Shown here in pieces: positions 14,487 through 64,000 of a stretch of DNA of 64,000 nucleotides. This stretch comes from Neorhizobium sp. JUb45 (GTDB lineage Bacteria > Pseudomonadota > Alphaproteobacteria > Rhizobiales > Rhizobiaceae), in the NCBI RefSeq assembly GCF_004343585.1, contig NZ_SLYW01000001.1:186001-250000 (forward strand). The letters are read 5' to 3'. Under the pieces are notes generated by a model. The model was not told the DNA's origin and ran no database searches. It saw nothing but the letters and a program-made list of their open reading frames with translations. Made by a program: the position numbers and the translations under genes. Positions within the stretch are counted from its first letter, which is position 1. Each line of letters starts with the position of its first letter.

Positions 14487-14512
14487 GGAACCAAGCCGGT
14501 GACATCGCCGTT
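14487..14512 (+). promoter_or_regulatory. EcfG-type promoter for topoisomerase IB
   Basis: GGAAC at 14487-14491 and CGTT at 14509-14512 are separated by 17 nt, an exact match to the alphaproteobacterial general-stress promoter. The -10 element ends only 8 nt before the ATG at 14521, so transcription would begin at or next to the start codon. Confidence 0.72.
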
Positions 14513-23106: not shown

Positions 23107-23131
23107 GGAACCTTTTTGACAGTTCCTCGTT
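23107..23131 (+). promoter_or_regulatory. EcfG-type promoter for the 77-aa gene
   Basis: GGAAC (23107-23111), 16 nt, CGTT (23128-23131): exact consensus, 24 nt upstream of the ATG. Confidence 0.75.
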
Positions 23132-23154: not shown

Positions 23155-23388
23155 ATGCAGAACTACTTCGATATCTTGCCCCACTCGACGGGGTGGATCT
23201 ATGTGATCAACGGCATGCCGTCAGCGTCTTTTCCAAGCTATACTCTGGCCCTGAAAGCCGCACATCTGCATGCCGAACGTGAACGCAACAGCCTGCAAAA
23301 GCCGGTTTTCCGCCGCCAGGAACTGGATGGCGGCATGGCGCCCTGCGATCAAAATGTGACAACGCCTTATCCGCAGATACGCTCCTGA
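23155..23388 (+). CDS. Small DUF2188-like hypothetical protein (77 aa)
   Basis: ATG 23155 has a GGAGG ribosome site 10 nt upstream and an exact EcfG promoter just before it. The product contains STGWIYVINGMPSASFPSYT followed by an Ala/His/Glu helix (ALKAAHLHAERE), which resembles the small DUF2188-type fold; I am not certain of the family. A terminator follows 25 nt after the stop, so it is a single-gene unit. Induction in stress or stationary phase is predicted from the promoter. Confidence 0.75.
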   Translation: MQNYFDILPHSTGWIYVINGMPSASFPSYTLALKAAHLHAERERNSLQKPVFRRQELDGGMAPCDQNVTTPYPQIRS

Positions 23389-23455: not shown

Positions 23456-23953
23456 TCACGCTGCCTTTTTTGCAGCGGAATTGACGGCCGTCGTGGCAAG
23501 CGTCGTCAGTGCCTCGTCGGTCTTGCTTTCTTCCGCAAGCGTTTGCTCCAGAAGCGTCACGGCCTCCTTCAAGCCCAGCTGTTTTGCCCAGGCACGCAGC
23601 GTGCCGTAACGGCTGATCTCGTAATGCTCAACGGCCTGTGCCGCGGCAAGAAGCCCTGCATCGAGCGCCGGCGTGCCCTTGAATTCTTCAAGGATTTCTT
23701 CGCCTTCGGAGAGGATGCCTTCGATCGCATCACAGGTCTTGCCCTGCGCGCGCTTGCCGATGATTTCGAAAACCTGCTTCAGGCGATCGATCTGACCTTC
23801 GGTTTCCTCCTTGTGGGTCAGAAATGCCTGCTTGAGTTTCGGGTCCTGCGCCCCACGCGCCATTTTCGGCAGCGCCTTCACGATCTGCCGCTCGGCGTAA
23901 TAGATGTCCTTGAGAGTTTCGTAAAACAGGTCTTCCAGCGTCTTCGTTGCCAT
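23456..23953 (-). CDS. DUF892 ferritin-like stress protein (YciF family)
   Basis: A 165-residue four-helix protein that starts LEDLFYETLKDIYYAERQIVKALPKMA, typical of the YciE/YciF family. Carboxylate and His residues (AERQ, HKEE, EHYEISRY) in the helices suggest a di-metal site. Homologues are induced by osmotic or general stress, and the function is not settled. AGGAGG precedes the ATG, and an EcfG-like promoter lies 65-90 nt upstream. Confidence 0.9.
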   Translation of the reverse strand: MATKTLEDLFYETLKDIYYAERQIVKALPKMARGAQDPKLKQAFLTHKEETEGQIDRLKQVFEIIGKRAQGKTCDAIEGILSEGEEILEEFKGTPALDAGLLAAAQAVEHYEISRYGTLRAWAKQLGLKEAVTLLEQTLAEESKTDEALTTLATTAVNSAAKKAA

Positions 23954-24154: not shown

Positions 24155-24331
24155 TCAGGTCTTGTCGGCCAGCTTGTCGTGAAGTGCCTCTTGCAGATCC
24201 TGCGCAAGCTTGAGCAGGCGATCCGGCACTGCTTCCTTCTCGATCTCGCTCAGGAGAATGGCGACTTCCTGCGATACCCGGCTGCCAAGCTTTGTGGGTT
24301 CATCGGGAACAAGCGTGCTGTCTTTCGTCAT
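24155..24331 (-). CDS. Second NepR-like anti-sigma factor (58 aa)
   Basis: ATG 24331, TGA at 24155; AGAGG lies 5 nt upstream of the ATG. The 58-residue product contains EIEKEAVPDRLLKLAQDLQE, which lines up with EEGIPDRFLDLLERLEQAE of the canonical NepR at 63108-63290. The PDR core, the flanking hydrophobic pattern and the overall size agree, with a disordered N-terminus as in NepR. NepR proteins sequester EcfG sigma factors until phosphorylated PhyR removes them. This gene is divergent from an EcfG-like sigma gene at 24609, so the pair looks like a second sigma/anti-sigma set. The N-terminal half is weakly conserved, so orthology is moderate. Confidence 0.72.
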   Translation of the reverse strand: MTKDSTLVPDEPTKLGSRVSQEVAILLSEIEKEAVPDRLLKLAQDLQEALHDKLADKT

Positions 24332-24536
24332 TCTTGCCTCTGCCGCATGGCTTTACTGGACCGCCAACGGTCTCGTTGCCCCCAGCATTCGATTTTATCT
24401 GCCCATGCTTAATTATTCGAAAGCGCATAATGGCGACCCAAGTCAATGCTCGGTGTGTGCATTGCACCCTTGCCACGGTGTCGGTGGACGATTCATCGGA
24501 TGGCTGATGCGCGAATGCGACAGCGCCGGCTTGTTC

Positions 24537-24562
24537 GGAACCAAATGGACAGAGCAGACGTT
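24537..24562 (+). promoter_or_regulatory. EcfG-type promoter for the second sigma factor
   Basis: GGAAC (24537-24541), 17 nt, CGTT (24559-24562): exact consensus with a 17-nt spacer, 47 nt upstream of the GTG start. It predicts autoregulation or a cascade from the EcfG at 62548. Confidence 0.7.
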
Positions 24563-24608
24563 TGCACCCGTCATTACCATCCGCAGATTTTGAAAGAGGT
24601 GCGCCCCG

Positions 24609-25133
24609 GTGTCTGAATCACAGTTGAGTCGTGATCCTGCACGCGCAGATATCGTCCGGCTGATCCCCGCACTCAGGGCCTTTGCCCGCACCTTTTGCCG
24701 CAATTCCAGCGATGCCGACGATCTCGTTCAGGAGACGTTGATGAAGGCACTCGGCAATCTCGACAAATTCGAGCCGGGCACGAAGCTGAAATCATGGCTG
24801 TTCACGATCATGCGCAACACTTTCTACACGCGCGCCAAGGTGTTGGGTCGCGAAGCGCCGGGCATCGAGGAAAATGTTTCGGGTGATACGCCGATCGCCG
24901 CCTCGCAGGAGGTGGCGGCGCGCGCCAAGGAGGTGCAGCGGGCGCTGGCAAAACTGCCGCCGCATTACCGCGAAGTGCTGACGCTGGTGGCGATCCTGGG
25001 CGAAAGCTACGAATCCGCTGCGGAAATCTGCGATTGCGCCGTCGGCACCGTCAAGAGCCGCCTCAACCGGGCGCGGCATCAGATCCTGATCGAGCTTGGC
25101 GAAGGTAACGAAAACGGGACGACACACGTCTGA
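24609..25133 (+). CDS. ECF sigma factor, EcfG-like paralogue
   Basis: A 174-residue ECF sigma factor starting at GTG 24609 (GAGGTG about 9 nt upstream). Region 2 is AFARTFCRNSSDADDLVQET through LKSWLFTIMRNTFY. Region 4 is LPPHYREVLTLVAILGESYE followed by SAAEICDCAVGTVKSRLNRA. Both regions closely resemble the EcfG at 62548-63111, including the EICxCAVGT segment. The divergent NepR-like gene and the exact EcfG promoter place it in the general stress response. sodC begins 35 nt downstream and is probably co-transcribed. Confidence 0.88.
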   Translation: MSESQLSRDPARADIVRLIPALRAFARTFCRNSSDADDLVQETLMKALGNLDKFEPGTKLKSWLFTIMRNTFYTRAKVLGREAPGIEENVSGDTPIAASQEVAARAKEVQRALAKLPPHYREVLTLVAILGESYESAAEICDCAVGTVKSRLNRARHQILIELGEGNENGTTHV

Positions 25134-61013: not shown

Positions 61014-61038
61014 GGAACAAAATCCGACACGCTGCGTT
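61014..61038 (+). promoter_or_regulatory. EcfG-type promoter for the DUF883-like operon
   Basis: GGAAC (61014-61018), 16 nt, CGTT (61035-61038): exact consensus. It lies 163 nt upstream of the next ATG, which implies a leader of about 155 nt. No other promoter is evident closer to the gene. Confidence 0.65.
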
Positions 61039-61200: not shown

Positions 61201-61542
61201 ATGGCGCCCGTAAATTCAACCAAGGATATTCCAGGCGAAGCCGCATCTGCTGTCTACGCGCAGGAAATCGAATTGCAGCTGGCTCAGCTGCGTGAAGATA
61301 TCGCAGTTCTTGCCCGCACGGTTGCAGCCGCCGGTTCGCAGAAGGCCGAAAATGTCACCCGCCGCGTGAAGCGCGCCACCGACGAAGCCGCCGACGCTTC
61401 GCTCAACATTGTCGAAGCTGCGCGTGAACAAGCTTTGTCGCTGGAAAAGGATCTCGAGCGCCAGATCCGCACCAATCCGCTGCAGTCGGTTGCCATCGCC
61501 GCCGGCGCCGGCTTCCTGTTCGCCCTCCTGGCGCGTCGCTGA
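61201..61542 (+). CDS. DUF883/ElaB-YqjD-like membrane-anchored protein
   Basis: A 113-residue protein with a helical, charged N-terminal 85 residues containing heptad-like ELQLAQLREDIAVLARTVAA, and a C-terminal anchor (NPLQSVAIAAGAGFLFALLARR). That end is the hallmark of the YqjD/ElaB family, which in other bacteria binds ribosomes at the membrane in stationary phase. GGAGA precedes the ATG. The next gene starts 2 nt after its stop. An exact EcfG promoter is upstream. Confidence 0.85.
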   Translation: MAPVNSTKDIPGEAASAVYAQEIELQLAQLREDIAVLARTVAAAGSQKAENVTRRVKRATDEAADASLNIVEAAREQALSLEKDLERQIRTNPLQSVAIAAGAGFLFALLARR

Positions 61543-62547: not shown

Positions 62548-63111
62548 TTAGCTTCCGAAAGCGCGCGACGTGATCGCCGCGTCACCCGGATCTGGGCCGA
62601 AATCGCCTTCTCCGGAAACACCCAGCAATTCCTGCAGGCGGGTACGGGCGCGGCTGACGCGGCTCTTGATCGTGCCGACGGCGCAACCGCAGATCTCGGC
62701 GGCTTCTTCATAGGCAAAACCTGCGGCGCCGACGAGAACGATGGCTTCGCGCTGATCGTCCGGCAGCTTGTCGAGGGCTTTTCGGAAATCCTGCAGGTCA
62801 AGGCGACCATACTGTTCCGGGTGCACCGAAAAACGTTCGGAAAACAGGCCATCACTGTCTTGTACTTCACGGCCGCGCTTGCGCATCTGGCTGTAAAATT
62901 CGTTGCGCAGGATGGTGAAAAGCCAGGCCCGCATATTGGTGCCGGGCGTGAAGCTGCCCTGGTTGGCCCAGGCCTTCATGATCGTGTCCTGAACCAGATC
63001 GTCCGCCTTGTCGTGGCGGCCCGTCAGGGATACGGCGAAAGCGCGGAGATTGGGCAGGGAGGCAAGGAGGTCACGCTTGAAAGCGCGGTCGGCGAGTTCC
63101 TGCTCAGTCAT
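62548..63111 (-). CDS. ecfG: General stress response sigma factor EcfG
   Basis: A 187-residue ECF sigma factor (RpoE2/SigT group). Region 2: AFAVSLTGRHDKADDLVQDT and MRAWLFTILRNEFYSQMRKR. Region 4: LPDDQREAIVLVGAAGFAYE and EAAEICGCAVGTIKSRVSRA. It directs transcription from GGAAC-N16-CGTT promoters, of which this window holds several. The ATG overlaps the nepR stop by 4 nt, so sigma and anti-sigma are translated together. Confidence 0.94.
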   Translation of the reverse strand: MTEQELADRAFKRDLLASLPNLRAFAVSLTGRHDKADDLVQDTIMKAWANQGSFTPGTNMRAWLFTILRNEFYSQMRKRGREVQDSDGLFSERFSVHPEQYGRLDLQDFRKALDKLPDDQREAIVLVGAAGFAYEEAAEICGCAVGTIKSRVSRARTRLQELLGVSGEGDFGPDPGDAAITSRAFGS

Positions 63112-63290
63112 TTTACATCCGCCGATTTCGCGTTTTTCTCAGCCTGTTCGAGGCGCTCGAGGAGATCGAGAAAGCGGTCGGGAATGCCTTCTTCCTGCAC
63201 AGCATCATAAAAGTCACGCAGCTTGCGCGAGATTGCCGAGTTCGGAAGCATTGCGCCGGGCTTGAAATCTTTCGCTTGTGCTGTCGTCAT
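63108..63290 (-). CDS. nepR: NepR anti-sigma factor
   Basis: A 60-residue protein with the NepR helix pair: ISRKLRDFYDAVQEEGIPDR and FLDLLERLEQAEKN. It binds EcfG, and is pulled away by phosphorylated PhyR, to which it binds through PhyR's sigma-like domain. Longer in-frame starts exist at 63326 and 63359. The latter lies upstream of the predicted transcription start and is excluded. ATG 63290 gives the family's usual length, although its ribosome site (AAAGAAA) is weak. Confidence 0.9.
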   Translation of the reverse strand: MTTAQAKDFKPGAMLPNSAISRKLRDFYDAVQEEGIPDRFLDLLERLEQAEKNAKSADVK

Positions 63291-63362
63291 TGTTTTTTCT
63301 TTTTTTCTGCTATCTTGTTCACTCATCACTCGGGCAGCCTGTTGCGATATCACTGACAACAG

Positions 63363-63396: not shown

Positions 63397-63421
63397 GGAA
63401 CTTTTTTTGTCGCCGACCGTT
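63397..63421 (+). promoter_or_regulatory. EcfG-type promoter for phyR
   Basis: GGAAC (63397-63401), 16 nt, CGTT (63418-63421): exact consensus, 46 nt before the phyR start. Its -35 and that of the divergent nepR promoter form GTTCC-N9-GGAAC. Confidence 0.78.
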
Positions 63422-63466: not shown

Positions 63467-64000
63467 ATGTCACTCACCACGCGCGTCGCGTCTCACCTTC
63501 CATACCTGCGTCGATACGCTCGTGCCGTCACCGGATCGCAGACATCAGGTGACGCCTATGTTGCCGCGGTCTTGGAAGCCTTGATTGCCGATATCTCGAT
63601 TTTTCCCGAGACATCCAAGGATCGCGTTTCGCTGTATAAACTTTTCGTTGCGATCTTTGGTTCCACATCCATCGAAATCCGCCCGATCGAATCGCCTTTC
63701 GCATGGGAACAGCGCGCCGTCGCCAATCTTTCGTCGCTGCCGTCCAAGGCGCGTCACGCATTTCTGCTGATTTCGGTCGAAGGTTTCACCATCGAGGAAA
63801 CCGCTGAAATTCTCGATATCGGTATCGATGAAGCGACCCAGCTTCTCGACGAAGCATCGCGCGAGATTTCCCGTCAGGTCGCCACCGACATCATGATCAT
63901 CGAAGACGAGCCGTTGATCGCGCTCGATATCGAACAGATGGTTCAGGATCTCGGCCACCGGGTTACCGGTGTTGCACGTACCCACAAGGAAGCAGTGTCG
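63467..64000 (+). CDS. phyR: PhyR anti-anti-sigma response regulator (3' end outside window)
   Basis: Reading from ATG 63467 (AGGGGAGA 8-9 nt upstream) the frame is open to the window end, 178 codons. Residues 1-130 are a sigma-factor mimic: a region-2-like helix set (LPYLRRYARAVTGSQTSGDA), then a region-4-like part (LSSLPSKARHAFLLISVEGF, TIEETAEILDIGIDEATQLL). A receiver begins at about 142 (IMIIEDEPLIALDIEQMVQD); its phospho-Asp lies beyond the window. On phosphorylation PhyR binds NepR and frees EcfG. It is divergent from nepR-ecfG, the standard arrangement. Confidence 0.94.
   Translation, partial: MSLTTRVASHLPYLRRYARAVTGSQTSGDAYVAAVLEALIADISIFPETSKDRVSLYKLFVAIFGSTSIEIRPIESPFAWEQRAVANLSSLPSKARHAFLLISVEGFTIEETAEILDIGIDEATQLLDEASREISRQVATDIMIIEDEPLIALDIEQMVQDLGHRVTGVARTHKEAVS

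Follow-up and report, generated by a model that had tools for sequence, protein, structure and literature searches.

Two pairs of genes, each for an EcfG-type sigma factor and a NepR-type protein, lie in the window, the 64,000-nucleotide stretch of Neorhizobium sp. JUb45 DNA that was analysed, as the original prediction had proposed. The canonical pair, used here for comparison, consists of ecfG1 (62548..63111, minus strand) and nepR-1 (63108..63359, minus strand), next to the N-terminal part of phyR (63467..64000, plus strand), which continues past the window end and has an EcfG motif ahead of it at 63397-63421. The nepR-1 ORF is listed from a TTG, but translation more likely begins at an in-frame ATG, at 63326 or 63290. 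The second pair comprises nepR-2 (24155..24331, minus strand), which starts with ATG and encodes 58 amino acids of a putative NepR-like protein of a distinct subfamily, and ecfG2 (24609..25133, plus strand), which starts with GTG and encodes a second EcfG-like sigma factor of 174 amino acids. Both ORFs were thus located where a 58-codon minus-strand frame (24331-24155) divergent from an EcfG-like sigma gene had been described. The two genes are divergent, spaced by 277 bp and do not overlap, so the earlier description of the small gene as lying 'opposite' the sigma gene means divergent rather than antisense.

The exact EcfG promoter attributed to the sigma gene was also found, as a GGAAC-N17-CGTT motif at 24537..24562 (plus strand), 46 bases ahead of the GTG. 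On the other strand, a ribosome-binding region (24332..24346, minus strand) with GCGGCAGAGGCAAGA stands ahead of the nepR-2 ATG, and many relatives have a CAGAGGTCGG(G/A)-type ribosome-binding context. Further upstream of nepR-2, a block at 24404..24449 (minus strand) is shared by 4 sequences, those of the window and of the three relatives closest to it. EcfG2 matches PF04542, PF08281 and PF22029, all above cut-off, corresponding to sigma regions 2 and 4 and a PhyR_sigma2-type match; it is 56% identical to Sinorhizobium meliloti RpoE5, which like RpoE2 is a classified ECF15 member, and 41% identical to EcfG1 of the window (130 bits). A DUF892 gene (23456-23953) adjoins nepR-2 and ecfG2, and genes annotated as ferritin-like adjoin EcfG2-type sigma genes in R. 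etli, Martelella and M. jarvisii.

Conservation of nepR-2

The nepR-2 ORF, whose conservation in relatives the original prediction had left to be checked, was matched in 57/57 genomes of the genus sample, which includes the window's own genome. An ATG start is available in all 57, as found by a script that favours ATG. Nucleotide changes at codon positions 1, 2 and 3 number 470, 292 and 1070, falling mostly on the third position (two of the 57 rows, lacking an anchor, were left out), and pN/pS of the core relative to the window has a median of 0.34 and a maximum of 0.52 across 54 comparisons. Presence throughout the genus, together with purifying selection, shows that nepR-2 is a genuine gene. 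Its nearest named relatives in one genome-collection scan are in Neorhizobium huautlense (86% identity) and Endobacterium cereale (81%). In the matched plasmid records, for which the gene table is incomplete, the site is unlisted, unannotated or called a hypothetical protein, which agrees with the earlier expectation that automatic annotation would easily miss so small a gene.

Distant homology to NepR

Profile comparison indicates that NepR-2 is a distant NepR homologue, in register with canonical NepR over a helix-PDR-helix core. When 16 NepR-2 members were compared by hhalign with 19 canonical NepR sequences (a class-wide sample above the Pfam cut-off, 20 minus one with a stop codon), the probability was 93% and the score 34.2. 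None of 300 column shuffles (best 21.1) and none of 300 shuffles that preserve the hydrophobic pattern (best 33.1, close to the true score) attained this value, and the reversed NepR-2 profile scored 10.9. Against NepR-1 of the window alone, the NepR-2 profile reached a probability of 84.5% and a score of 31.3 in an alignment that is gapless, including over the PDR core. Thus, the NepR-like frame with a PDR core that had been predicted is supported, as a case of distant homology. Masking PDR, VPDRLL or KEAVPDRLL lowered the score to 18.2, 15.0 and 10.9 and the probability to 16%, 4% and 0.7%, respectively, indicating that one short core bears the signal.

This confinement to one core favours a reading by convergence, in which NepR-2 would be a small, conserved, helical protein that does something else and has come to share a similar PDR core with NepR. 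In keeping with that reading, the window protein alone has no NepR match in Pfam even at E 10, and a protein search of its own genome reached NepR-1 only at E 1.07. An AlphaFold2 model of NepR-2 (mean pLDDT 76, pTM 0.38, low-confidence start) predicts helices at residues 13-32 and 37-57 with a break at the PDR turn (VPDRLL), an arrangement that speaks for the NepR reading; Foldseek found no match to this two-helix model in the PDB at E up to 10, and a PDB profile search with NepR-2, which gave 19 matches, reached the solved NepR chains 5uxx_B and 4qic_B only at non-significant E values of 0.27 and 0.40. A PHROGs search of NepR-2 gave no match, and a match to the RelN antitoxin (NCBIfam, E 0.11, 13.2 bits against a cut-off of 70) was judged to be noise. 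However, the family as a whole argues against convergence. Although the Pfam check suggested in the original prediction failed for the window protein, 19 of 29 NepR-2 members scanned singly matched the NepR family PF18557 at E up to 1, all of them below its gathering cut-off of 25.7 bits, and no other Pfam family was matched by more than one of the 29. The best of these matches (locus L123, E 1.2e-5, 25.2 bits) has a flank without a sigma gene, while L164, with a sigma gene in its flank, matched at E 0.00093 and one genus member at E 0.0016. Convergence also fits poorly with the 0/600 shuffles that attained the hhalign score, with the sigma genes that neighbour nepR-2 and with the retrieval of canonical NepR loci by the NepR-2 profile, and we consider it very unlikely.

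At E up to 0.01, that profile matched 117/394 family genomes and 55/297 order genomes. Part of these matches, 88 loci outside the genus, were examined, weak matches without a locus being left unsorted. Nine of the 88 score better as canonical NepR (NepR-2 profile E 4.6e-6 to 2.7e-4), and at all nine EcfG1 lies in tandem with the NepR gene and PhyR is divergent from it.

Divergence from canonical NepR

The aromatic position of the LRxxY motif is Tyr or Phe in 19/19 of the canonical NepR sequences used. In NepR-2 it is Leu in 55/55 genus members scored (2/57 had no anchor and were left out), and it is aromatic in 0/73 members outside the genus (one left out). The missing aromatic residue marks NepR-2 as a separate NepR subfamily. 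According to the relevant passages on S. melonis, alanine at the Leu or the Tyr/Phe of LRxxY weakened NepR and NepR2, whereas a change of the Arg did not (PMC6599016). With these residues paired to NepR-2 by L-R-x-x-Y spacing, the comparison suggests that contact with PhyR is perhaps altered in the NepR-2 subfamily.

Four of four genomes whose genus we take as Sinorhizobium, because NepR-2 in one of them (L097) nearly equals the copy on S. meliloti pSymB, encode two canonical NepR above the cut-off and NepR-2 as a third gene. Thus, NepR-2 very probably corresponds to neither RsiA1 nor RsiA2. This bears on the possibility that NepR-2 serves as an additional brake on EcfG1, not specific to EcfG2, in the way that RsiA2 acts on RpoE2 in S. 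meliloti. A precedent exists in that RsiA1 and RsiA2 each bind RpoE2 and both RsiB proteins, as stated in a passage of PMC4814048. However, the three-gene complement of these four genomes speaks against such a role, as does the position of nepR-2 near EcfG2-type rather than EcfG1-type sigma genes, leaving it highly doubtful.

Association with the second sigma factor

The second sigma gene was present in 57/57 genus genomes, on the same contig as nepR-2. The two are divergent in 56 genomes, their matched stretches lying 254-5873 bp apart, and in tandem, 11 kb apart, in the remaining one. Because the gap is 4.35-5.87 kb in 33/57 genomes, a shared divergent promoter region was ruled out as a general rule. 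In the only long gap that was read (L231, 1748-6294; G009:C1), genes fill the stretch between ecfG2 and nepR-2; we take them to be Ku, LigD and a second Ku.

Outside the genus, an EcfG2-like sigma gene was found within the retrieved flank (mostly 1.5 kb) at 40 of 79 NepR-2-like loci, and 39 flanks were without one. The 79 include two duplicate pairs from two collections (L039/L094 and L040/L117), without which the count is 39/77, and also weak matches (below about 30 bits, such as L196 and L198-L200) that may be false members. The sigma gene is convergent at 21 of the 40 loci, divergent at 11 and in tandem at 8. With all three orientations represented, nearness of nepR-2 to a sigma gene evidently survives rearrangement. 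We estimate that chance nearness would be about 1% if a genome carries around 20 such sigma genes.

In a sigma tree, eight NepR-1-linked sigma factors form one starred clade, and the NepR-2-linked sigma factors all fall outside it. The backbone of this tree is unresolved, and the Ciceribacter and Chelatococcus rows, wrongly extracted and covering 12-13% of columns, were ignored.

Promoters and control

Across the window, GGAAC-N16-17-CGTT occurs 6 times where 0.99 would be expected, and 0/100 shuffles attain this number. Besides the motif of ecfG2, exact EcfG-type motifs occur at 14487, 16820, 23107, 61014 and 63397; that at 61014 lies ahead of an ORF at 61201, and that at 23107 ahead of an in-frame ATG near 23155 in a small ORF.

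Upstream of ecfG2 and on its strand, GGAAC-N15-18-CGTT is found in 54/57 genus genomes (30/30 in one set and 24/27 in another, for which strands were compared by hand). Upstream of nepR-2 the window has no EcfG motif, and among the genus genomes GGAAC-N16-17-CGTT occurs within 250 bp upstream of the gene in 2/57, more than 220 bp away in both. This contrast suggests that ecfG2 is probably under EcfG control and that nepR-2 is unlikely to be. The proposal that the second pair is wired under the first therefore holds for its sigma gene and finds no support for nepR-2 as an EcfG target. A GGAAC at about -175 of nepR-2 in many relatives was set aside as well, having no suitably spaced CGTT box; it is followed by a sequence that, by eye, resembles a hairpin terminator.

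Other conserved elements may serve nepR-2. A CTGTGACNTTTTCGGGAT block is conserved upstream of the gene in 30/57 genus loci (for example L008, L020 and L150) and is often extended by ATCCGAA into an inverted repeat, TTCGG-GATAT-CCGAA; it is possibly a promoter or operator. Neither the window nor its three closest relatives carry this block; their conserved stretch at 24404-24449 may be a promoter or another regulatory region, of a type other than EcfG.

These observations bear on the main rival to a dedicated anti-sigma factor of EcfG2, namely that NepR-2 is a PhyR decoy (an anti-anti-anti-sigma factor) whose competition with NepR-1 for PhyR dampens the response as a whole, and for which proximity to ecfG2 is secondary. 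A decoy role has been put forward for S. melonis NepR2 and M. extorquens META2p0735: both co-precipitate with PhyR, and their overproduction weakens the response; the passages concerned do not show sigma binding for these paralogues (PMC6599016, PMC4814048). The JUb45 genome has one PhyR-grade PF22029 match (93.8 bits, the next being 53.4), which would leave a decoy only one target. However, the LRxxY aromatic whose substitution by alanine weakened S. melonis NepR and NepR2 is absent from NepR-2, nepR-2 mostly lacks the EcfG motif that known feedback paralogues carry, and its stable neighbour is a sigma gene. We thus regard a decoy as unlikely.

Discussion

In sum, nepR-2 is a genuine gene for a NepR-like protein and is linked to a second EcfG sigma factor. 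Reading its sequence and gene neighbourhood together, we favour, with slightly better than even confidence, the interpretation that NepR-2, a diverged member of the NepR superfamily, is an anti-sigma factor dedicated to EcfG2, whose gene lies next to its own; in more general terms, it probably restrains EcfG2.

In this family of regulators, stress causes PhyR to strip NepR from EcfG. A dedicated role for NepR-2 would extend this scheme. Under stress, PhyR would pull NepR-1 away from EcfG1, which would then, as RpoE2 does with rpoE5 in S. meliloti, use the GGAAC-N17-CGTT promoter to transcribe ecfG2. The promoter of nepR-2 has no EcfG motif and presumably gives a constitutive level of NepR-2, which would wrap its two predicted helices around EcfG2 and hold it. 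Release might follow once EcfG2 outnumbers NepR-2, or through PhyR or another antagonist, and NepR-2 would in this way set a threshold on a second tier of the general stress response.

A more far-reaching version, which we advance tentatively and consider rather unlikely in its entirety, is that NepR-2 represents an anti-sigma subfamily of its own which, having lost the aromatic for contact with PhyR, serves as a PhyR-independent, fixed-threshold brake on EcfG2, the second, EcfG1-driven tier, and which has been kept in Rhizobiaceae and their neighbours in three gene orders. Under such a PhyR-independent brake, the genes would have been overlooked because they are small and fall below the Pfam cut-off.

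A gene of this kind is already known from one short passage of Lang et al. 2018, which describes an unannotated ORF on the opposite strand to SMb21687, beside S. meliloti rpoE5, with a product similar to RsiA1 and RsiA2, and calls for further work on it (PMC6180224). By tblastn, a NepR-2 homologue (51% over residues 19-53) lies at 1405887-1405991 (minus strand) of NC_003078, directly after rpoE5 (SMb21484) on pSymB of S. meliloti 1021; from position and strand, we infer that it is the ORF of that passage. The arrangements differ, the S. meliloti ORF being convergent with and downstream of rpoE5, whereas nepR-2 is divergent from and upstream of ecfG2. Transcription of rpoE5 is described as RpoE2-dependent in passages of PMC6180224 and PMC3616915. 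Beyond the Lang et al. 2018 passage, we found no treatment of the NepR-2 subfamily in the mainly open-access literature searched. What is added here is the subfamily itself, together with the findings that it has lost the NepR aromatic and that it is persistently linked to a sigma gene.

Like canonical NepR, RsiA1 and RsiA2, NepR-2 is small, with a helix, a (V/I)P(D/E)R-L turn and a second helix, and is encoded next to an EcfG-type sigma gene; unlike them, it has no LRxxY/F aromatic, falls below the Pfam cut-off and lies outside the phyR-nepR-ecfG locus. S. melonis NepR2 and M. extorquens META2p0735 are likewise NepR-like extras beside a canonical NepR. However, on the evidence of the passages cited, these paralogues are PhyR binders under EcfG control (PMC6599016, PMC4814048), and S. 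melonis NepR2 retains a functional Leu and Phe, whereas NepR-2 lacks the aromatic, and nepR-2 the EcfG motif in 55/57 genus genomes.

About half of alphaproteobacterial genomes encode more than one EcfG sigma factor, according to a passage of PMC3892343. As reported in parts of PMC3892343 and PMC4814048, NepR does not bind the second EcfG in C. crescentus and Sphingomonas, and in M. extorquens it binds only two of six. Thus, a conserved and often unannotated NepR-like gene near many extra EcfG sigma genes is a direct candidate for their control.

Not every second EcfG has such a neighbour. R. etli EcfG2 (PF00052) resembles ecfG2 of the window in being a second EcfG-type sigma beside a ferritin-like gene, yet no NepR-2 was found in the 49 kb scanned around it, and the passage of Jans et al. 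2013 on this gene reports no anti-sigma gene near it (PMC3892343). The JUb45 genome itself has a further EcfG-like sigma gene (G000:C15:52320-52472, locus L050), which groups with plasmid sigma factors of N. galegae and R. tropici; no NepR-type gene was found in its 3-kb locus. On plasmid pMJ700743a of Mesorhizobium jarvisii (L081), nepR-2 and its sigma gene adjoin genes for an HWE histidine kinase and a response regulator, and the L081 group is possibly a plasmid-borne stress module.
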